From: Megasphaera vaginalis (ex Bordigoni et al. 2020)
Lineage (GTDB): Bacteria > Bacillota > Negativicutes > Veillonellales > Megasphaeraceae
Length of the DNA: 64,000 bases
Direction of reading: 5' to 3'
Assembly: GCF_900240295.1 (NCBI RefSeq)
Contig: NZ_OEQB01000002.1
Span: 186,001-250,000, forward strand
The first letter of the stretch is position 1; each line of letters begins with the position of its first letter. Of the stretch, positions 4,791 to 52,794 are shown piece by piece. Both the position numbers and the translations under genes were made by a program. Below the pieces are notes generated by a model, which was not told the DNA's origin, searched no databases, and saw nothing but the letters and a program-made list of their open reading frames with translations.

Positions 4791-7700
4791 CGGCCGCCGT
4801 AAATCCGGGCTGAGTTTTGACTACAAGGAGCGTAGTTTTGATCCGAATGTGTTGCGGTATTATGGGAATGCGTCCGATGTCGGGTTGACCGGCTCTTACG
4901 ATATTAATAAAAATAATTCTCTCGATTTTAAATTTGACAGATATACGGAAGATTTGGTTCGCGATGTCAAGCATTCCGATTCCGATTTGGAACCGCAGCA
5001 GCATTTTAAGAGAAATGCCGACAGAAATACGTTTAATTTGGCGTGGAAAGGCCGCCGCGGCAATACGGATTGGACCGTAGAAGGAAATTATACGCGAATG
5101 AAAGAAGACGATGTTGCCTTGATCAACTATTTTGGGCGGTCTGCGTATGAAGGGAAAAACGAACTTCGTTATGTCGATGACGTTGATCACCGGCAATATA
5201 ATTTACAGACGTCGTTCAATACGCAGATCAATGACAGGCATATGCTCAATTACGGCATCGGCTATTCTCATGAAGAAGGCGAAGGCAGCCGCCTGAAAAG
5301 CTCACCTCACACACGGACAAAGTACATCGATGCCTGGGACTATGATAAAAATCTGCTCGTCGATAAACTAGACCGTCTGGTTCGCAAAAAAGGCGATACG
5401 AGTACGCGGATTTATTCGCACATCCATGATTACAAATTTGACGGCAACGATGCATCGGGCATGCCGCAATGGGATATCAACTATGAATATTACGGCGAAG
5501 AAAAGGGAAATGCCAAAACGATTGCGCCGATTAAGTACGAAGACTATGAGAACTATAAATTAGGCGATAAAGGAATGAGGGAGGAGAAAACCGATTGGAG
5601 TACGGGCAAAACGAGCTGGGTAATAAAAACAGAATATGACGGTACCGTTCACATGCCGAACGGCGCTGTCGTAGCGGCTGATTCGGATATTGCCAAGCGA
5701 TATGAGGCGATGTACCATAAGTTGACGAAAGAGAACCCCGGTTATAAAGGAGGGAATATTGTCGGCGCGTATTTTGAATATGGCGAATCGTCAGATGCAA
5801 AAAAACGCGCCGAAGCACCGACATTAAACGGCAAAAAATTCCTTGAAGAATTTCGTAACCGTAATCAGCGGATTACGGTTGGCAGCGGCAAAATTACTAA
5901 GCATAACGTCTTCCTTTCCGATATGTGGCAAGTTAATCCGGATACGATCATCGTGCCGACACTTCGCTACGATCACAGCAATCTTTTCGGCAGCAATCTT
6001 TCCGGCAATTTGGGCTTGACCTATACTGTTGCCGGCAATGCACATCGACGGTTTAAAGCCAATATCGGAACTGGCTATACGGAACCGGGAATGGGCGAGC
6101 TTTGGTATAATTGGGAAATGTACGCCAGCAATCCCGTCGGAGTCGGTTATGCAAAATTAGGTTGGTATTGGGCCGGTAATCCGAACTTGAAGCCGGAAAA
6201 ATCACTGAATTTCGATATGAGTGTGGAAGGAGAAAATAAAAACACCTACGCTCGCCTAGGAATTTTCCATAACCGAATTAAAAACTATATGTCGGTGTAC
6301 TACACGGGAGCCTTGATGGACTTTGCACCGTATTTGCATGGTGATCGGAAGTATCAGCGCGCTCCCGACATGATTTACAGTTTTAAAAATATCGGCAGAG
6401 CCGAAATTACGGGGCTGGAAGCGGAAGTGCGGCAGAAATTGGGAAACCATTGGAGCGCAAAGCTCGGGTATACGTATCTGCACGCTATCAATAAGAGTGA
6501 TCCTCAAATGCCGCATCGCTTGCTGGATAAACCGATGCATAAAGTGGACATTGGCCTGACCTTTGACGATCCCGTCAGCGGCTGGGGAGCTTCAATATGG
6601 GGCGATTACTATATTCGGATGCTCGACAGCAATACGTTGGCGGACAGTGCGAATTATTGGCCCGATATTTTAGATGGTGAAGGCGCCGTCTACAATAAAC
6701 GCGTTTACCAGGAAAAGACTTTTGGGATTTGGAATCTCCTGTTCCAAAAGAAGTTTGATGAAGATTCCATCGCTTATTTCGGTGTCAATAATGTCTTCAA
6801 CCATCGCGACGACGATCGGGCGACCCAAGAACGAGTATATCGCTTCGGCGTTAACCTTAAATTGGGGTTCAGCCGGAAAGCAAAAGAAAGGGTCTTTGTA
6901 CCGAAAGATAAGGCCGGCAAGGCTAACGTGGCGCCGGTCTTGCTGCAAGGGTTCTTGGATCGTCCCTTTGATACGGAAAAAGAGCGCGGCGCGGAACTAA
7001 TGGGAGAGTATCGTGCCCGTTGGAAGGTTCATGACGGTACGAACCGGCCTCAATCGAGATACCGTGCCGATACCTACGTCGGTACGGCAGCGGCAAATAT
7101 GAAGGATCAAGGCGAACACGGTTTTGAACAGCGGGTTCGCCTTGGCGTTGACGCTCGTCTCAGTGAAAATACGAACCTTACCGTCGTCGGCAGTGCTTCC
7201 GGAGAAAGCGGTGTCGATACGTCTTACGAAACGGAAAGCGCTAAAGGCATTAAGCATCGCCGTCTCGATCGTGTTGATCTTACGCAGCGGGCGCATAAAT
7301 GGGACTTTTCCATAGGTCGCCTGACGGAACCGATGGGGGTAACGGGATATTGGTTCGGCAAGGAATTTGACGGTGCTCGGGCTGTCTGGACAGGCAAAGA
7401 GACACAGATCCGCCTTGGTTACGGTACGTTTACCCACAGTACCGGCATTCCTGATTCGGCGTATACGCACGCTGTCCATGCGACCTTCTTCCGACCTCCT
7501 ACTATTATGGAATTAGTTGGTATTGATAAAGATGAAATGCCATATGCCGTGCAAAAAGGTACGACGCTGGATAAAACCTATGAGACGGCATATAAGGGGA
7601 AAACGGATTCCCTGTTCTTCCTCCAGCAATTGCGGGATGTTTGCGAAGATCCCAAGGCTACGGAAGCGGATAAGTTGGCCGTACTTCAACGGATGCAACG

Positions 7701-34259: not shown

Positions 34260-34288
34260 TTGACAAGACGACTAATATATTTTATTAT
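34260..34288 (+). promoter_or_regulatory. Promoter of the ArsR-CoA-disulfide reductase operon
   Basis: TTGACA (34260-34265), a spacer of exactly 17 bases, and TATTAT (34283-34288). The -10 lies inside the left arm of the large palindrome described next. Confidence 0.85.
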
Positions 34289-34320
34289 TTGAATATAAGG
34301 ATATTCAAATAATAAAATAT
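34277..34320. promoter_or_regulatory. Operator: 20-4-20 perfect inverted repeat overlapping the -10
   Basis: Arms of 20 bases (34277-34296 and 34301-34320) flank AAGG. The core ATTTGAATAT/ATATTCAAAT resembles operators of sulfide/persulfide-sensing ArsR proteins (BigR, YgaV, SqrR). An extra half-site ATATTCAAAT continues at 34317-34326. Repressor binding here would cover the -10 and start site. Confidence 0.85.
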
Positions 34321-42967: not shown

Positions 42968-44107
42968 CTACATTGGCGGAGGCCCTTGCCTGCTGCTCTT
43001 TGATGAAGACGAAGAAGATGATGATGATTTGGAAGCCGTGTACGAAATGGAAACCTTATCGCCATCTTCCAAACCGCTGGTAATTTCGACGTATTCATCA
43101 CTGTATATGCCCGTCTTGACGGGGACTTGCTCTGTTTGTCCGGCAGCATTGACGCGCAATACGTAGGAACCGTCATTGTTGGTTTTTAAGGCGGCAATGG
43201 GGATGGCCAGCGCATTTTCTTTTTCTGACGTGTTGATGTCGACACGGGCCGTCATGCCGAGCCGCAATTCATCGTTCGGGTCGTCGACGTCCAGCGTGAC
43301 ATAATAGTAGATGACGCTGGCCGTTGAAGAGGATGAAGAGGACGAAGAGGAACTGGATGTCGTATCCCAGGTGTTGCTCGTGTCCGTCTTCGATATTTTT
43401 GAAACGCGGGCCGTGAAGGTGCGGCCTGTATACGTATCAACCGTAAAGGTTGCCGTCTGGCCGACTTTGATATTGCCGATATCGGTTTCATCTATTTTCG
43501 CGAGGATCTGTTTTTGCGAAGTATCGGCAATACGCATGATGACTGTCGGGCTGCTGTTGCCCTGGACGGCCATCGTGCCTGCCGATTTCGGTTCGCCGAC
43601 GACAACGCCGTCCATGGGCGCCGTAATGACCGTTTCGGCGACATCCGATTCAGCGGCCGTTAAACTGCTGACAGCCGTATCGTAGTCATAAGCAGCGTTA
43701 TCCAGATCCTGCTTGGCGCCGGCGCCGGCTTCGTAAAGGGATTTGGCCCGTTCATATGCTAATTGCGTGTTAGTTACCTTATACTGCGCCTGGTCGCGTT
43801 TTGCTTCATAATCCTTGCCGTCCAAAGTGGCGACCGTTTCGCCTTTGGTTACGGTATCGTTTTCTTTAACCAGAACGGAACTGATGCGAGCCGTGATTTT
43901 CGGGGATACTTCGACGGAATTTACGGGGCTGATCGTACCGGTGGCGGAAACGGTGGATTTCAAATTCATGCGGGATACCTCGGCCGTCTCCACTGCCGAA
44001 GCCTGGCTTGCCGCTTCTTTTGCCTGGTAGTATTCATAAGCGCCGAAGGCGCACGCCGCGATGATAATGGCGGCAATCGCCATTTTCACTTTACTGTTTA
44101 CTGTCAT
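42968..44107 (-). CDS. MacA-type periplasmic adaptor of the ABC exporter
   Basis: 379 residues. A membrane anchor ([18 protein letters not shown]), then a lipoyl half-motif ([20 protein letters not shown]), a short coiled hairpin, the second lipoyl half ([20 protein letters not shown]), and a beta-barrel domain. It has an unusual run of eleven Ser (about residues 250-262) in the barrel domain and a Ser-rich tail ending RQGPPPM. The ATG at 44107 follows AGGTGATG and starts the anchor; a longer frame to 44257 is unlikely. First gene of the three-gene exporter operon. Confidence 0.9.
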
Positions 44108-44257: not shown

Positions 44258-44538
44258 AATGACGGGAAACAGATGCGATGCCGAAGGATAAGATTGAAAC
44301 CATCGTTAATCATGAAAAAGAGGTATGATGAAAACGTCGCCATCGTGCTGCTCGTGGTGTTGCCATGCGCGGGGAATACGGCTGCCGCAGCGGCGTTTTT
44401 TGCCTGACGTAACAGGACCTGTACCTGTAAATAATATGAAAATATACTATCCCGCTTATCTCGTTGTGTGCACAAAATGAGAAGTGATACTTAGGGATAA
44501 AGTATATTGTATATATCCATAACCGCATAAACTATCAA
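44258..44538. other. Gene-free stretch between two divergent operons
   Basis: About 280 bases contain no credible gene on either strand. It should hold the minus-strand promoter of the MacAB-like operon. A GC-rich piece (about 44335-44405) ends in GCGGCGTTTTTT and could form a weak hairpin, but no known riboswitch core is visible. From about 44440 the sequence becomes AT-rich. Confidence 0.5.
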
Positions 44539-44577
44539 GATATCCATGAATACCTGAGAAATGTATTCATGGATATC
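44539..44577. promoter_or_regulatory. Perfect inverted repeat 1 upstream of the acyl-CoA operon (15-9-15)
   Basis: GATATCCATGAATAC (44539-44553) and its exact reverse complement (44563-44577) flank 9 bases. It lies six bases before a second, different palindrome. The absence of a T-run argues against a terminator, and an operator is more likely. Confidence 0.7.
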
Positions 44578-44582
44578 CCCGT

Positions 44583-44627
44583 AGTAATACTGACATATTT
44601 ATAATTTATAAATATGTCAGTATTACT
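44583..44627. promoter_or_regulatory. Perfect inverted repeat 2 upstream of the acyl-CoA operon (22-1-22)
   Basis: Arms of 22 bases (44583-44604 and 44606-44627) around a single T form a 45-base perfect palindrome with the core TGACATATTTATAA. Length and symmetry resemble TetR- or MerR-type operators, or two overlapping dimer sites. It lies about 205 bases before the acyl-CoA dehydrogenase start. An AT-rich promoter region follows. Confidence 0.75.
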
Positions 44628-44832
44628 TTATAAAGGTATGGGCCTGATTATAAAAATATGGAAAGAAAAAACATAGACAAATAATAGACAAAAGAAACTG
44701 CAAAATGGAAAAAATATCATAAATTTTCGGTTAAAAAGTCTAGGAAATGTGCATATTATTCCATGTAAATTTTGCGTAATATGGACATATGGACAAAACA
44801 TATGTACCTGTGAGAAGGAGTTGAACTTGATT

Positions 44833-45966
44833 ATGGTATTAAATGACGATCAGAAAATGATTCAAAAAATGACAAAAGAAATTGCACAGAAAGTTATTGC
44901 CCCCCAAGCGGCTTATTACGATCGGACGGAAGAATTCCCTTGGGAAAATGTCAAGAAACTGAGTGAGATGGGGTTCATGGGCATGGCTGTTCCCGAAATT
45001 TATGATGGCGCTGAAATGGATATGGTTTCCAGTGTTGCAGCATTGGAAGAAATATCAAAGGCATGTGCATCAACAGGAACTATTATGGCTGTTCATAATT
45101 CGGCAGGGATTTTACCGGTTTTAAATTTTGGTTCTGAAGAACAAAAAAAGGAGTATTTACCTAGACTGGCGACGGGGGATGCTGTTGGTGCATTTGCTTT
45201 GACGGAACCGGGAGCAGGGTCCGATGCGGCGAAGGTGATGACAACGGCTGTTGAGGATAAGGAATGTTATGTATTAAACGGGAGTAAGTGTTTTATTAGT
45301 AACGGAGGAGCGGCGGAAATATTTATTGTATTCGCATCAAAAGACAAAACAAAAGGGGTAAAAGGATTATCTGCCTTTATCGTTGAAAAAGGTGCTCCCG
45401 GTTTTTCTATTGGAAAACATGAAGAAAAAATGGGGATTAGAGCATCTTCCACCGTAGAATTGATTTTCGATAATTGCAGGATCCCTAAAAAAAATCAATT
45501 AGGCAAAGATGGGGAAGGTTTTAAAATTGCAATGGTAACTCTCGATACAGCTCGAATCGGAATTGCTGCGCAGGCTGTAGGTATTGCTGAAGGCGCATAT
45601 CAGGAAGCAGTGGCATATGCAAAAGTAAGAGAACAATTCGGTAAACCGATTTGTTATAACCAAGCCATTGGATTTATGTTAGCGAATATGGCGATTAGCA
45701 TTGAGGCGGCAAGGCAGCTTACTTATCATGCAGCTCAATTGAAAGATAATCGGCAAGCTTTTGGGAAAGAAGCGGCTATGGCTAAAACCTTTGCATCGGA
45801 TGTTGCTGTTCAAGTAGCGTTAGATGCGATTCAGATTATGGGGGGATACGGTTATTCCCGTGAATATCCTGTAGAAAGAATGCTTCGAGATGCAAAAATC
45901 ACACAAATATATGAAGGTACAAACCAGATTCAACGAGTTGTAATTAGTCGTTCGATCTTACAATAG
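44833..45966 (+). CDS. Acyl-CoA dehydrogenase (CaiA/butyryl-CoA dehydrogenase type)
   Basis: 377 residues, normal length. Motifs are AFALTEPGAGSDAAKV and CYVLNGSKCFISNGG for FAD and substrate contact, the catalytic glutamate region QIMGGYGYSREYPVERMLRDAKI, and the C-terminal IYEGTNQIQRVVI. The enzyme oxidises or reduces the alpha-beta bond of a short acyl-CoA. It heads an operon with a CaiB/BaiF CoA-transferase, a crotonase and a permease. The start is the ATG at 44833 after AGAAGGAG; the longer frame (44749) adds non-family sequence. Base composition is clearly more AT-rich than genes before 44200. Confidence 0.93.
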   Translation: MVLNDDQKMIQKMTKEIAQKVIAPQAAYYDRTEEFPWENVKKLSEMGFMGMAVPEIYDGAEMDMVSSVAALEEISKACASTGTIMAVHNSAGILPVLNFGSEEQKKEYLPRLATGDAVGAFALTEPGAGSDAAKVMTTAVEDKECYVLNGSKCFISNGGAAEIFIVFASKDKTKGVKGLSAFIVEKGAPGFSIGKHEEKMGIRASSTVELIFDNCRIPKKNQLGKDGEGFKIAMVTLDTARIGIAAQAVGIAEGAYQEAVAYAKVREQFGKPICYNQAIGFMLANMAISIEAARQLTYHAAQLKDNRQAFGKEAAMAKTFASDVAVQVALDAIQIMGGYGYSREYPVERMLRDAKITQIYEGTNQIQRVVISRSILQ

Positions 45967-45978
45967 GGAGGAGATAGT

Positions 45979-47217
45979 ATGCTGCAACCTTTAAAAGGCG
46001 TTACAGTTATTGATTTAACGTATTTTGTCGCAGGTCCTGGAGCTGCGAAAATTTTAGCGGACTGGGGGGCCGATGTTATTAAAGTGGAACCTCCGTTTGG
46101 CGACCCGATTAGAACTTCAGGAACATCGCTTCAAGCGCCGATTGAAGAAGACTGCAACCCCTTATATGCCGCTTTTAACTCAAACAAGAGAGGCTTGGCT
46201 CTTGATTTGAAAAATGAAGCAGGTAAGGCGGTCCTCAATAAATTGCTTACAACTGCCGATGTTTTTTTATCCAGCTATCGGACGGGAGCCTTAAAAAGAT
46301 TGGGGCTGGACTATGAAACACTTCATGAAAAGTATCCTCATCTTATTTGGGCTCAATTAAACGGATATGGTGACTTTGGGCCGGTGAAAGATAATCCGGG
46401 GTTTGATGTTGTGGCTTTTTGGGCGAGGAGTGGAGCGATGATTGACTTTCCTGAAAAGGAGACATCGCCTATTAACGCTCCATACGGGTTTGGTGATGCA
46501 ACAACTGCATGTTCTTTGGCGGGGGGGATTGCAGGCGCACTGTATCAGAAGGAAAAAACCGGTAAAGGGTGTAAGGTTATGACCTCTCTTTACGGTCAAG
46601 CGATTTGGAACAATGCCGCCTTGGTTATGGCTACACAATATGGTGATGAATATCCTAAAACGAGGAAAAATCCAATGTCGCCGGTGATGGATAGCTTCCA
46701 ATGTTCTGATGGAAAATGGATTTATATGAGCATTTTACAACATGACCGCTATTATAACACTTTGATGAAAGATGTTATTGACCGCCCGGATTTAGTCGAT
46801 GATCCTCGTTTTGCCAAAGCTGTTGACGGGAAAAAGAATGCTGTCGAGTTAGTGGAAATTATTAGCCAAGGATTTGCTAAATATACACAAGCAGAAATGG
46901 CTAAAAGGCTACATGATGCCGATATTGCATATGATTGCATTCAGCATGTCAAAGATACATTAAATGATCCACAAGCGTTAGAGAACCAGTATATTGTGCC
47001 AATAAAAAACTTTGATGGCAGTGAAACGAAACAAGCGATGACACCTGTGAGATTTTGTGATATTGAACCAACAACTCCAGTTGATATTGCACCGACAGTA
47101 GAACTTTTAGCACCCAAAATTGGCCAAGATTCCGTAGCAATTTTGAAGGAATATGGGTATGCTGATGAGGACATTGATGAACTGGTTCAAATTGGCGCTG
47201 TATTTACAGCTAAATAA
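45979..47217 (+). CDS. CaiB/BaiF-family (class III) CoA-transferase
   Basis: 412 residues. Family features are GVTVIDLTYFVAGPGAAKILADWGADVIKVEPP at the start, read in part as ADWGADVIKVEPPFGDPIR with the catalytic-site aspartate expected after NPGFDVVAFWARSG, and the conserved FNSNKRGLALDLK. Class III enzymes move CoA between carboxylic acids, as CaiB does for carnitine/crotonobetaine. Here it should activate the acid brought in by the permease at 48088. Starts 12 bases after the dehydrogenase stop, RBS GGGAGGAG. Confidence 0.93.
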   Translation: MLQPLKGVTVIDLTYFVAGPGAAKILADWGADVIKVEPPFGDPIRTSGTSLQAPIEEDCNPLYAAFNSNKRGLALDLKNEAGKAVLNKLLTTADVFLSSYRTGALKRLGLDYETLHEKYPHLIWAQLNGYGDFGPVKDNPGFDVVAFWARSGAMIDFPEKETSPINAPYGFGDATTACSLAGGIAGALYQKEKTGKGCKVMTSLYGQAIWNNAALVMATQYGDEYPKTRKNPMSPVMDSFQCSDGKWIYMSILQHDRYYNTLMKDVIDRPDLVDDPRFAKAVDGKKNAVELVEIISQGFAKYTQAEMAKRLHDADIAYDCIQHVKDTLNDPQALENQYIVPIKNFDGSETKQAMTPVRFCDIEPTTPVDIAPTVELLAPKIGQDSVAILKEYGYADEDIDELVQIGAVFTAK

Positions 47218-47232
47218 AGGAGAGAAGATAAA

Positions 47233-48024
47233 ATGGAACTGTCTCAGTTGAATAATATACTTTTTGAAGTAGAGGAAGACATTGCCACAATCACAATTAA
47301 TCGACCGAAGGCTTTAGATGCGTTAAATCCCGAAACGGTGATGGAATTAGGAGCCTGTATTGATGTTTTAGAGAAGGATAAGTCCGTTAAAGTCGTCGTT
47401 ATTACAGGTGGGGGCAATAAATCTTTTGTTGCGGGAGCGGATATAGTCGCTATGTCGACGATGAATTCCATTGAAGGTCGAGATTTTGGTAAACTGGCTC
47501 AAGATACTTTTACGCGGATTGAAAATTTGCCGCAACCGGTTATTGCAGCTGTGAATGGATATGCATTAGGTGGCGGCTGTGAATTGGCGTGTGCTTGTGA
47601 TTTTCGCTATGCATCGGAAAATGCGAAGTTTGGGCAACCTGAGGTTGGTCTTGGTGTTACGCCTGGATTTGGAGGAACACAACGATTACCAAGAGTTGTC
47701 GGTAGAGGATACGGCAAAGAATTAATTTATACCGCCAAATTGATTAATGCTGAAGAAGCCTATCGCATTGGATTAGTTAATTTAGTGGTTCCGCAAGAAA
47801 ATTTAATGAAGGAAGTAATAAAAACGGCAAAACTAATTGCTTCAAAAGGCAAAATTGCTGTGCAATTATCAAAAGCTGCTATCAACAGAGGCATTAATTG
47901 TGATGTTATTACAGGTATCGCTTACGAAGATGAAGTTTTTGCTATCTGTTTTGCTACGGCAGACCAAAAAGAGGGCATGGGAGCTTTTGTGCAAAAAAGA
48001 GAGCCGCACTTCATTGGAAAATAA
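47233..48024 (+). CDS. Enoyl-CoA hydratase/crotonase-family protein
   Basis: 263 residues. The oxyanion-hole segments are KSFVAGADIVAMSTM and NGYALGGGCELACACDFRYA, and GQPEVGLGVTPGFGGTQRLPRVVG contains the catalytic-glutamate region of crotonases. It would add or remove water at the double bond of an enoyl-CoA, pairing with the dehydrogenase upstream. RBS AAAGGAGAG, 15-base gap to the CoA-transferase. Confidence 0.93.
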   Translation: MELSQLNNILFEVEEDIATITINRPKALDALNPETVMELGACIDVLEKDKSVKVVVITGGGNKSFVAGADIVAMSTMNSIEGRDFGKLAQDTFTRIENLPQPVIAAVNGYALGGGCELACACDFRYASENAKFGQPEVGLGVTPGFGGTQRLPRVVGRGYGKELIYTAKLINAEEAYRIGLVNLVVPQENLMKEVIKTAKLIASKGKIAVQLSKAAINRGINCDVITGIAYEDEVFAICFATADQKEGMGAFVQKREPHFIGK

Positions 48025-48025
48025 C

Positions 48026-48065
48026 TATATGTATAGGAGAGTGCATGCCCTCTCCTATACATATA
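48026..48065 (+). other. Perfect intergenic hairpin between the crotonase and permease genes
   Basis: Arms of 16 bases (48026-48041 and 48050-48065) with the loop TGCATGCC. Sequence after it is AAAAACTAAAGG, not a T-run, so it is not a standard terminator. The right arm ends about 7 bases before the permease RBS (AAAGGTGGTG). It may stabilise the upstream mRNA or lower permease translation. Confidence 0.8.
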
Positions 48066-48087: not shown

Positions 48088-49485
48088 ATGGAAGTTTTAA
48101 TGATTATTATCAGCTTGGCCTTATTAGTAACAATTGCATATCGTGGCTTTTCCGTTATTCTATTTGCCCCTGTTTGCGCATTGGTGGCGGCTAGTATGGC
48201 CAATTATCATTTATTGCCTGGATATACAGAATTGTTTATGGGTAAAGCGGTTGTATTTGTTAAATCCTTCTTTCCTGTTTTTTTACTAGGTGCAGTTTTT
48301 GGTAAGATAATGGAAGAGACAGGGATGGCACGGAGCATTGCTGGGATCGTTATTAAAAAACTGGGTAAGGATAAAGCTATCTTATCAGTTTTGGCAGTAT
48401 GTGTTATTTTAGCGTATGGAGGCGTTAGTGTTTACGTAGCCGTTTTTGCAATTTATCCTTTTGCCGCAGCTGTGTTTAAAGAGGCGAATATACCTAAGAA
48501 GTTAATTCCGGCAGTACTGGTAGCGGGCCTTCTGACGATGGTTATGGATTCAGCGCCAGGGACACCTCAGTTGCAAAATATTATTCCTACCGTTTACTTG
48601 GGAACGACTATTTATGCCGCTCCTATTTTAGGCACGATTTGCGGTACAGCGACTTTGGTCCTTTGTTATTTATATTTGAATTGGAGACGTAAAGTGGCTG
48701 AGAAAACAGGGGAAGGATATGGGAACCATACGTTAAATGAAACCATCGTAGATCCCGATCAACCTACTCCTCCATGGTATTTATCCGTTTTGCCTTTAAT
48801 TACGGTGTTAGGAGTTAGTTTCTATTTATCATTTGTTTTTACTTGGGATACAACATTAGTTGAACCATTCCAAAAAATGGGACTTCCTTTGACTGCTAAA
48901 AGTGTAAAAAATGTTGTATCTATTTGGTCGCTCATTATAGGTCTTTTAGTGGCTATTATCTTGGCATGCGTGTTAGGTAGAAAGTTTATGTCAAAGAGTG
49001 TAAGCATGAAAGCGGCCTTAAATGCAGGAGCGATTGGGTCTCTATTGGCGATTATGAATACGGCATCTGAAGTCGGGTATGGTAGCGTGATATCATCATT
49101 GCCGGGGTTTACCGAAATTGCCAATTCGTTGTATGGCATTGGGGCCGGTATGCCGTTGGTAAATGTTGCCATTATGGTAAATGTGTTAGCTGCAATTACC
49201 GGATCGGCAACCGGCGGACTTGGTATAGCTTTAGAAATATTCAGTCAGCACTGGCTGGAAACAACTGCTGCGGCAGGTATACCGGCAGAGGTTGTTCATC
49301 GCATTGCTTCTATGGCTGCCGGAGGGATGGATACATTACCTCATAATGGCGCCATTATCACGACGTTAGCGATTTGTGGGTTAACTCATAAAGAATCATA
49401 CAAGGACATTTTCGGAGTAACCTTATTGAAGTTTGCTATGGCGTTTGTAGCAGTGTTTTTATATATGTTAACGGGAATTGTTTAG
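48088..49485 (+). CDS. GntP-family permease (H+:carboxylate/hydroxyacid symporter)
   Basis: 465 residues with about 12-14 membrane helices. Features of the GntP/ArsB-like ion transporter family include FFPVFLLGAVFGKIMEETGMA, ILAYGGVSVYVAVFAIYPF and the late AAGGMDTLPHNGAIITTLAI. GntP members carry gluconate, idonate or 3-hydroxybutyrate with protons. It is the transport partner of the acyl-CoA genes upstream, in place of the betaine-type carrier of true cai operons, so the substrate is probably an uncharged-head hydroxy or unsaturated acid (inference). Confidence 0.9.
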   Translation: MEVLMIIISLALLVTIAYRGFSVILFAPVCALVAASMANYHLLPGYTELFMGKAVVFVKSFFPVFLLGAVFGKIMEETGMARSIAGIVIKKLGKDKAILSVLAVCVILAYGGVSVYVAVFAIYPFAAAVFKEANIPKKLIPAVLVAGLLTMVMDSAPGTPQLQNIIPTVYLGTTIYAAPILGTICGTATLVLCYLYLNWRRKVAEKTGEGYGNHTLNETIVDPDQPTPPWYLSVLPLITVLGVSFYLSFVFTWDTTLVEPFQKMGLPLTAKSVKNVVSIWSLIIGLLVAIILACVLGRKFMSKSVSMKAALNAGAIGSLLAIMNTASEVGYGSVISSLPGFTEIANSLYGIGAGMPLVNVAIMVNVLAAITGSATGGLGIALEIFSQHWLETTAAAGIPAEVVHRIASMAAGGMDTLPHNGAIITTLAICGLTHKESYKDIFGVTLLKFAMAFVAVFLYMLTGIV

Positions 49486-49964: not shown

Positions 49965-51443
49965 GTGAATGATTATGCAGAAGGGTTAAAGGAGTTATTA
50001 GAATTCGTTAATATAAGGTATAGTGTATTATCAAAAGAGATCGGTTATGATTTATCGTATGTCAGCAAATGGGTAACAGGAGCCAGATTACCTGCTGCTA
50101 AAAATGTCGATTTAATCAATCAAAAAATAGCTAATGCAGTTACGTTGGTTACGATAAAATTGAAATTAAGTGAAGAACTTAAAAAACGGTTTTTAGATTC
50201 TAAGCATATTTCCGATCAGGATTTAGAATTTGAGATATATCAATATTTGAGTAATCGATATAGACGGTCTATTGGAACCAAAAAAAACAAGCAGGCGATA
50301 GAAACTGAGCATACAAATAAATCGGCTATTGGTGTTACTGATTGTCAGGTATTAATTTCTAATGTCATTGATACCTGTCTAGGTAATGAAGCTGCCGAAA
50401 TAGATATATTGATTACCGGTGATTTTATTAGTTTGATGCAAAATAAATTTTGGAGTACTTTTTATCGGGAATCATTAAAAAAGTGTTTTTGTAAGATAGA
50501 TTTATTGATCAATTTTGAACGTTTAAAGGATGATCCGGTTTCTCATATGGGAGATTTGTTCCAGTGCCTTAATGACTTTTTGGACTTTGATTTTACGATT
50601 CATGAAAAAATATCGGATCAATATAGCAATATTATCGTAATAAAAAATAAAGCGGTAATTTATTATTACTTAAATGTAGAAGGATATATTGATTTGTGTT
50701 CGGTGATTACCGATTCGGAACAAGTGGCTGTGATTTTTGAAAAATGCAGATCATTTATGGCGACATTGCCGGTAGTATTGAAGCCTAAGAAAACGTTGGG
50801 CATGGAACGTTTTGGATATAGGGATACATTCTATACATCAGATGAATTTTTCTTTTTTTGTGTAAACGGATTTGAGTTTTTATTGCCTGATAAGGTGTTT
50901 GATTCGATGTTATTAAAAGCTAAAATGGGAGATTTGGATCCGGCTACTGAAGAATGGGTCGAACGTGTTAGGGCTATTTGGGAAAATTTGATGGTAAGAG
51001 TATCATTGCGATTTATGTTGCCGACAAATTCCATTATCCGATTTTTAGAGACGGGGGATATTCAGCTTACTGATTTTTCCTACCAATTAACACCGGAAGA
51101 AAGGCGAGATCATGTTAAAAATATTTTAGAGGTTATGAAATTGAACCCTAATATTACGTTCGGTGTGTTATTACCGACAACAGAAAAATACAGCGGAACT
51201 AATTTTACGAATCTTTCATTTAATACGAATTATTCCACTGGATTTTTGAAGAAAAATTTGCACTATATACATCGCAGCACAAATCCTATCTATTTTATTA
51301 ATAATCCCTTACTACTACAATATTTTCAGCAGTTTTTTGAACATCAGAGAAAAAGCAGACATTATAAAGAATATACTGTTGATCAATTAGCTAAATTGTA
51401 TGATCAATATAAATTTTTAATGGATTTTCTTTTTGAAAAATGA
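49965..51443 (+). CDS. Large protein with N-terminal XRE-like helix-turn-helix; function unknown
   Basis: 492 residues from a GTG. The first 60 residues resemble a Cro/C1-type helix-turn-helix (SVLSKEIGYDLSYVSKWVTGARLP). The remaining 430 residues fit no family I know. They look like a soluble alpha/beta protein with no membrane helices or enzyme motif. Codon use is AT-rich like the four genes before it. As the only DNA-binding candidate in the AT-rich island, it may regulate the acyl-CoA operon by sensing its substrate in the large C-terminal part. That is inference; it could equally be an orphan regulator. Confidence 0.8.
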   Translation: MNDYAEGLKELLEFVNIRYSVLSKEIGYDLSYVSKWVTGARLPAAKNVDLINQKIANAVTLVTIKLKLSEELKKRFLDSKHISDQDLEFEIYQYLSNRYRRSIGTKKNKQAIETEHTNKSAIGVTDCQVLISNVIDTCLGNEAAEIDILITGDFISLMQNKFWSTFYRESLKKCFCKIDLLINFERLKDDPVSHMGDLFQCLNDFLDFDFTIHEKISDQYSNIIVIKNKAVIYYYLNVEGYIDLCSVITDSEQVAVIFEKCRSFMATLPVVLKPKKTLGMERFGYRDTFYTSDEFFFFCVNGFEFLLPDKVFDSMLLKAKMGDLDPATEEWVERVRAIWENLMVRVSLRFMLPTNSIIRFLETGDIQLTDFSYQLTPEERRDHVKNILEVMKLNPNITFGVLLPTTEKYSGTNFTNLSFNTNYSTGFLKKNLHYIHRSTNPIYFINNPLLLQYFQQFFEHQRKSRHYKEYTVDQLAKLYDQYKFLMDFLFEK

Positions 51444-51485: not shown

Positions 51486-51580
51486 GTGACGATTAAGGGG
51501 AGCGCGATCACTGCTGAGAGGAAGACGAACTTCGACCCTAGAACCTGATGCGGATAATGCCGCCGTAGGAACAGTAAGTA
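51486..51580 (+). ncRNA. TPP (THI-box) riboswitch
   Basis: It contains the diagnostic blocks in order: AAGGGGAGC, CTGCTGAGAGG, GACCCTAGAACCTGATGCGG and ATAATGCCGCCGTAGGAAC. The RNA binds thiamine pyrophosphate. A terminator hairpin follows directly, so when TPP is plentiful transcription should stop before cytX. Boundaries are approximate. Confidence 0.95.
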
Positions 51581-51590
51581 TACTTAGTGA

Positions 51591-51636: not shown

Positions 51637-52794
51637 ATGGAAACAGAAAAGACTTCAGTTTGGAATAATGGGCTCTTATGGTTCGGCGCCGGTATTTCCA
51701 TTGCCGAAATATTAACGGGAATGCTGTTGGCTCCTTTAGGGTTTGCTGAAGGGAGCGCGGCAATTTTGATCGGCCATGTTATCGGCGGCGCCGTTATGTA
51801 TTATGCCGGACTTATCGGTGCACGTACCGGCAAAAGTGCGATGGAAACGGTGCAAATTTCCTTCGGGCAAAAGGGGGCGCTTCTTTTTGCCGGACTCAAT
51901 GTCATTCAGCTTGTCGGCTGGACTGCCGTCATGGTGGCCAGTGCCGCCGTTGCCGCGAATACAATCGCCGGCACGGGAACTTCGTTTTGGAGTGTGATCA
52001 TCGGCGCGTTCATCGCTTTGTGGATTCTTTTGGGTTTGAAGAACCTGGGAAAACTCAACGGGGTGGTCATGGCCGCTTTATTGTTGCTCACGATCGTTTT
52101 GAGTGGTGTCGTTTTTCATGGCGATGTGTCGCCGTCTGCAGGTGATATGACGTTTGGAGGCGCCGTCGAGCTGGCTGTTGCCATGCCGCTTTCATGGCTG
52201 CCGGTCATTTCCGATTATACGCGGACGGCAAAACGGCCGCAGCTAGCTACGGCGGCAAGCTGCGGCGCATATTTTGTTGCCAGTTGCTGGATGTTTCTGA
52301 TCGGTATGGGTGCGGCTTTATACACCGGACAGGAGGATATTGCCGCAGTTATGGTTGAAGCCGGATTAGGTGCGGCGGGGATTTTGATCGTTTTGCTGTC
52401 GACGGTTACGACGACTTTTCTGGATGCCTTTTCCGCCGGTGTCAGCGGTCGGCGATTGCTGCCGCAGTTTTCGGAAAAGGGGTTGGCCTTGATCGCTTGT
52501 GTTGCCGGCGTGGTCTTGGCCATTTTGGCTGATGCAGAACGGTTTCAGGATTTTCTTTACCTCATCGGATCGGTCTTTGCTCCGATGACGGCCATATTGC
52601 TGACCGATTATTTTCTTCTCAAAGAAGATCACGGGGCTTCGGCTGTGAATTGGCTGAATCTCGTTCTCTGGGCAGGCGGATTCTTTCTTTACCGTTTTTT
52701 CCTTGACGTGGAAACGCCGTTGGGCATAACATTTCCTGTCGTCATCATCATTATGGTTATCAGCGCAGCATGCCACAAGGCGCTGCGGCGATAA
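51637..52794 (+). CDS. cytX: Hydroxymethylpyrimidine (thiamine precursor) permease CytX
   Basis: 385 residues, about 12 membrane helices of the NCS1 cytosine/purine permease family. The start (LLWFGAGISIAEILTGMLLAPLG) is characteristic of the CytX branch, which is found behind thiamine riboswitches and takes up hydroxymethylpyrimidine for thiamine salvage. The TPP riboswitch here supports that assignment. The ATG at 51637 is 9 bases from AAGGAGA. Its stop is only 2 bases from the end of the convergent pyruvate kinase gene. Confidence 0.92.
   Translation: METEKTSVWNNGLLWFGAGISIAEILTGMLLAPLGFAEGSAAILIGHVIGGAVMYYAGLIGARTGKSAMETVQISFGQKGALLFAGLNVIQLVGWTAVMVASAAVAANTIAGTGTSFWSVIIGAFIALWILLGLKNLGKLNGVVMAALLLLTIVLSGVVFHGDVSPSAGDMTFGGAVELAVAMPLSWLPVISDYTRTAKRPQLATAASCGAYFVASCWMFLIGMGAALYTGQEDIAAVMVEAGLGAAGILIVLLSTVTTTFLDAFSAGVSGRRLLPQFSEKGLALIACVAGVVLAILADAERFQDFLYLIGSVFAPMTAILLTDYFLLKEDHGASAVNWLNLVLWAGGFFLYRFFLDVETPLGITFPVVIIIMVISAACHKALRR

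Follow-up and report, generated by a model that had tools for sequence, protein, structure and literature searches.

Among bacterial hairpin terminators is a tandem class known as U-shaped. According to two surveys, inverted repeats of bacteria are strongly enriched 3' of genes and stem-loops are rare in divergent gaps (PMC13155455, PMC1590033); one of them, covering 40 genomes, places only about 10% of stem-loops in such gaps, against a 25-35% share of these gaps in intergenic space (PMC1590033). The two palindromes described here, designated A and B, are found in a gap between divergent genes of Megasphaera vaginalis, in a stretch of 64,000 nucleotides that was analysed as a whole and is hereafter called the window (contig NZ_OEQB01000002.1). 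They resemble the terminator-like stem-loops of low-GC firmicutes, which are described as stable, AT-rich, intergenic, 30-50 nt long and not explained by large repeat families (PMC1590033). They differ from them in two respects, since the firmicute stem-loops mostly occur near the stop codon of an upstream gene and, when directly 3' of genes, carry a 3' T-run in 65-75% of cases, whereas A and B sit in a divergent gap and have none.

Strong hairpins devoid of a U-trail, as A and B are, have been described as I-shaped (U-tract-less) terminators, an example being TtsaD, although the functional evidence is presented as contradictory in that paper (PMC5335608). As described there, these belong to GC-rich mycobacteria and are located behind a gene, in contrast to A and B, which are AT-rich and do not follow a gene.

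Structure and placement of palindromes A and B

Both palindromes precede an operon that starts with an acyl-CoA dehydrogenase gene (ACD). The features of the region, in the coordinates of the window, are as follows.

42968..44107, minus strand: macA-like periplasmic adaptor that flanks the block on the left (start codon set by eye)
44312..44407, plus strand: 31-residue ORF that reads as a bare signal peptide (by eye)
44539..44577, no strand: palindrome A, perfect, 15-9-15, hairpin of -19.4 kcal/mol as RNA
44583..44627, no strand: palindrome B, perfect, 22-1-22, hairpin of -24.6 kcal/mol as RNA
44738..44763, plus strand: conserved box GTC-N7-TGTG-N2-TAT-N3-TC-N-A, candidate REG site
44777..44782, plus strand: apparent -10 hexamer TAATAT, at 13 nt from the box (set by eye on comparing seven loci)
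44833..45966, plus strand: ACD (best NCBIfam model acryloyl-CoA reductase, below cut-off)
45979..47217, plus strand: class III CoA-transferase (CaiB type)
47233..48024, plus strand: enoyl-CoA hydratase
48026..48065, no strand: intercistronic palindrome 16-8-16
48088..49485, plus strand: GntP-like permease
49965..51443, plus strand: 492-residue protein, presumed regulator (REG), with a weak N-terminal HTH_3 match
51486..51588, plus strand: TPP riboswitch, right flank
51637..52794, plus strand: cytX, right flank

The first-pass annotation had reported two perfect palindromes that share no sequence and are not followed by a T-run. Its coordinates are exact, the arms of A (44539-44553 and 44563-44577, 15 nt, spacing of 9 nt) and of B (44583-44604 and 44606-44627, 22 nt, spacing of 1 nt) match at 100%, and no sequence common to A and B was found; the six bases it gave as the distance between them are in fact 5 (44578-44582). 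In 300 sequences drawn from a Markov-1 model built on 44401-44850 and searched with loops of up to 20, the longest perfect arm was 12, seen once, and arms of 15 and 22 were never reached. The RNA fold of 44480-44720 has an energy of -61.3 kcal/mol (z -7.75), a value equalled by none of 200 shuffles, and folding predicts for each palindrome the stable stem-loop of a canonical intrinsic terminator. The T-run, in the strict sense of one directly 3' of the stem, is absent for A and B on both strands, with tails that read CCCGTAGTAA and TTATAAAGGT on the plus strand and TTGATAGTTT and ACGGGGATAT on the minus strand, and a scan for terminator-like hairpins named neither. Neither is placed as a canonical intrinsic terminator would be, 3' of a gene transcribed from the same strand: the gap is divergent and contains no intact plus-strand gene upstream of the palindromes, just the 31-residue ORF at 44312, perhaps what remains of a lost gene for a secreted protein. 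The end of B lies 205 nt before the ACD start codon, which was picked by homology to G015 (a relative, see below) and L079 (a stretch of the same genome), and the apparent -10 follows the pair at a distance of about 150-240 nt.

A GC-rich stem with a T-run is found at 44300-44410, inside the signal-peptide-like ORF, and may belong to a remnant gene or to a leader. A leader-peptide attenuator was considered at this place because of Cys codons and of the stem with its T-run; it may exist, but the fold does not exceed that of shuffles (z -0.84, 39 of 200 being as good) and the alternative frame looks like a signal peptide.

The view that long perfect symmetry is uncommon does not hold locally, as 22 perfect inverted repeats (arms of at least 14, loops of up to 30) were counted in 128,004 bases of this genome, a non-random sample made of the window and of four stretches taken for other reasons. 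A crude ORF-based sorting assigned 7 of them to convergent gaps, 9 to same-strand gaps, 3 to the inside of ORFs and 3 to divergent gaps. By hand, the repeat at L079 8857-8900 was found not to be divergent, since it follows a plus-strand ORF of 152 residues that the sorter had dropped, and the one at 34277-34320 was moved to a divergent gap, the ORF containing it being taken as spurious. The divergent-gap palindromes are A, B and the latter, which precedes an ArsR-type gene. Long symmetry is common in this genome and what stands out is the placement of A and B.

The palindrome at 34277-34320 is AT-rich (20-4-20), lies immediately before a gene that we take to be of ArsR type from a reading of its protein, and is possibly the operator of that gene. 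It is comparable to A and B in its long perfect symmetry and divergent intergenic placement, but is found directly before the gene of a likely regulator, which A and B are not. A second tandem pair of the same genome (L079 4629-4708, 13-9-13 and 19-4-19) adjoins the end of a gene reading as a sigma-54-type regulator, and the more downstream member of the pair, as read on that strand, runs into a T-run (by eye). Perfect AT-rich palindromes of 23-3-23 and 17-1-17 also occur in G015, 3' of an enoyl-CoA hydratase-like gene (L224 6624-6762).

A dispersed repeat family, which the first-pass annotation had regarded as incompatible with its proposal, was not found, each palindrome being single copy. 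When up to 3 mismatches were allowed, the 22-mer arm of B occurred in its own genome at its two places alone; with up to 2 mismatches, the 15-mer arm of A gave its two places and 15 others, one with a single mismatch and 14 with two, none of them paired with a neighbouring match. The many genomic copies typical of REP-like dispersed palindromic repeats are thus lacking for A and B. No exact match to the inner 29 bases of B or to the arms of A was found in IMG/VR, nor any match to 44500-44660 in plasmid and phage sets, and a comparison of 44260-44900 with 60 genomes of the order (own included) gave, apart from the own genome, just three short matching stretches, all outside the palindromes. Neither A nor B is present before the paralogous operon of the same genome or before the operon in relatives. 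At gathering score, Rfam detected just a tRNA and the TPP riboswitch in the whole window, with nothing at A or B, and the titles and abstract openings searched in the open-access literature include none describing these palindromes.

Hairpins and a shared box before related operons

Orthologous operons were compared in three relatives, G015, G016 and G005, whose ACD is 77%, 76% and 70% identical to that of the window. The more distant operons, of which 11 of 80 loci were looked at and which mostly have different gene orders, were excluded from the comparison. Each of the three has a hairpin upstream of ACD, at 196 nt from its start in G015 and G016 and at 217 nt in G005, compared to 205 nt for B. 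These hairpins share with A and B this distance and a long perfect or near-perfect stem, and that of G016 is as stable as B (-23.8 versus -24.6 kcal/mol). Unlike A and B they enter T-runs, those of G015 and G016 come after an esterase-like gene or what is left of it, and their sequences are unrelated to A and B, only the G015 and G016 hairpins being related to each other. In G005, two successive hairpins occur between the upstream gene and ACD.

In G015, the hairpin is located 3' of the esterase-like gene (335 residues, 1.0 kb). The G016 hairpin and ACD leader are 94% identical to those of G015, yet only 73 nt separate two well-matched parts that are 730 nt apart in G015, so that, in net terms, some 0.65 kb of the esterase-like gene is missing. 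Partial loss of this gene with a kept hairpin provides direct evidence that a gene before the operon can be largely lost while its predicted terminator hairpin persists.

Two further observations concern these operons. The gap between the hydratase and permease genes contains a hairpin that is kept in position in three operon copies despite differing sequence (window 48026-48065; L076 8794-8838; L078 about 6945-6987, the third imperfect and defined by eye); in G015 the hairpin at the place of 48026-48065 is 14-17-14 and of other sequence. In G005, the permease gene is split by about 12 kb (L077 7369 to L078 6477) with matches to a relaxase, RepA_N and a large serine recombinase, together with an EF-G-like GTPase which resembles ribosomal-protection tetracycline resistance proteins.

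A different element is common to the leaders. The pattern of the box at 44738-44763 emerged when three ACD leaders were aligned with that of the paralogous operon. A search of the family (17 genomes) gave 8 exact matches, four of which defined it (window, own paralogue on contig C4, G015 and G005), for a chance expectation of about 0.8 (31/40, from a reversed control). With one mismatch allowed, 33 matches were obtained versus 31 for the reversed control, which corresponds to no enrichment. In seven of the eight exact matches the box lies at the operon, at its paralogue or at CoA genes beside REG homologues: the match on contig C3 of G016 belongs to the ACD orthologue, and those in G006 and G002 precede a gene reading as a CoA-transferase that is divergent from a REG homologue. 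Around the remaining one (G016, contig C18), none of the five block proteins was found within the 13 kb read. All seven related loci (window 44738-44763, L079 8922, L076 12162, L222 2983, L078 10300, L084 8500 and L085 9236) have, by eye, a -10-like hexamer 12 or 13 nt past the box. No good -35 was seen for the ACD promoter. For REG, whose family has no Pfam match above cut-off and whose HTH_3 match is under the gathering score (E 0.0014 for the first 70 residues), this box makes a better candidate site than A or B.

The block between macA and cytX

Matches to macA exist in 17 genomes; G016 (best 31%) and weaker second matches were left out, and the region upstream of macA was read over up to 1.5 kb in 15 relatives with 54-79% identity. 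The divergent neighbour of macA is cytX in 8 of these 15, with 67-75% identity to cytX of the window, and in 3 others a gene that reads, by eye, as a secreted hydrolase. The order differs in the window, where cytX and its TPP riboswitch come after REG, the promoter of cytX (TTGACA-17-TATACT, by eye) starting ten bases past the REG stop codon. The genes in between have a GC content of 31.6-42.3%, versus 51.6-55.2% for macB, macA, cytX and the pyruvate kinase-like gene. Given the macA-cytX neighbourhood of relatives and this GC contrast, the block (ACD, CoA-transferase, enoyl-CoA hydratase, permease and REG), which was probably acquired horizontally, has most likely been inserted between macA and cytX. 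Of 61 genomes of the order, the own one counted, 12 carry a REG homologue, all within two genera of a single family, and 14 have a relative of the permease, which in one case is a fragment at a contig end.

A and B are found at the left edge of this low-GC block, where the DNA upstream of macA changes, around the ORF at 44312, into the AT-rich stretch that bears them. No counterpart of A or B was found at the right edge, and comparison of both edges gave no notable repeat, the best direct match extending over 16 columns and including a single mismatch and a single gap. A role in the control of macA is disfavoured: among the 15 regions (1.5 kb, arms of at least 11), only that of L227 has perfect repeats, two in number and unrelated to A and B.

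Origin and possible role of A and B

We consider that A and B are terminator-type hairpins located at the edge of the acquired block, where they serve as a boundary or persist as a relic that retains some effect, a reading to which we give a probability of about 0.5. In this scenario B, and A before it, would descend from or replace the terminator of a lost upstream gene, and their present role, if any, would be to stop or slow stray plus-strand transcription before the ACD promoter, while the operon itself may be controlled through the box upstream of the -10, bound by REG, perhaps an activator since no good -35 was seen. Several observations go against a terminator: the missing T-run, the absence of an intact plus-strand gene upstream, the divergent gap, a setting in which the survey of 40 genomes found few stem-loops, and the fact that the other divergent-gap palindrome of the window, at 34277-34320, looks like an ArsR-type operator. 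As A and B are unrelated in sequence to the hairpins of relatives, descent cannot be shown, and the argument from position is weakened if the latter, as may be the case, are simply terminators of whichever gene lies upstream.

Because of the missing T-run and the divergent setting, part of the probability goes to two other readings. That each palindrome is the operator of its own regulator, as the first-pass annotation proposed, be it a regulator of the ACD operon, of macAB or of another gene, is unlikely, since both are missing upstream of the paralogous operon, of the operon in relatives and of their macA, and it is the box next to the -10, not A or B, that is common to operons with REG homologues. 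Their distance from the -10 also speaks against operators, as does perfect symmetry over 39 and 45 bp, which exceeds the usual needs of protein contacts. In its favour, A and B have no T-run and, unlike most of the long palindromes counted in this genome, sit between divergent genes, a place where a terminator would not act on any gene now present; the palindrome before the ArsR-type gene is also a hint that this genome may use long perfect operators. What stands from that annotation is that the repeats are real, distinct and not dispersed; neither their uncommonness, as far as this genome goes, nor the operator role was borne out. Equally doubtful is the idea that A and B are relics devoid of function, be they terminators or quasi-palindromes, which stayed at the junction once the upstream gene was lost. 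The placement at the block edge, the ORF at 44312, possibly a truncated signal peptide, and the G016 gene with its partial deletion would fit, but not one of the 37 paired positions is mismatched. Drift would be expected to disrupt a few of them, except if the change were recent or if correction, perhaps by template switching, were frequent.

The hairpins may alternatively form an insulator, conserved in structure and place with a sequence that turns over fast, which would keep read-through away from an activator-dependent promoter at any site the block enters; all four block copies seen do have a long hairpin some 200 nt before the first gene, and we regard such an insulator as improbable. 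A transcribed structure, either a small RNA or a long 5' leader whose hairpins stabilise or regulate the mRNA, is very improbable: the RNA fold is far above shuffles, as it would be for any perfect palindrome, but the apparent promoter shared by seven loci lies downstream of the hairpins, which disfavours a leader role, and no Rfam match occurs there. An origin from a dispersed repeat family or as mobile-element ends is hardly credible, as A and B, although at the edge of an inserted block, are single copy, without viral, plasmid or phage matches and without a right-edge counterpart.

Overall, A and B are most likely leftover transcription-stop hairpins rather than switches of the operon, a fairly ordinary find. 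If this is right, a supposedly unusual pair of operators would be removed and attention would shift to the conserved box beside the promoter; the locus would also provide a small example of terminator hairpins that outlast the gene they served at the edge of an acquired block.
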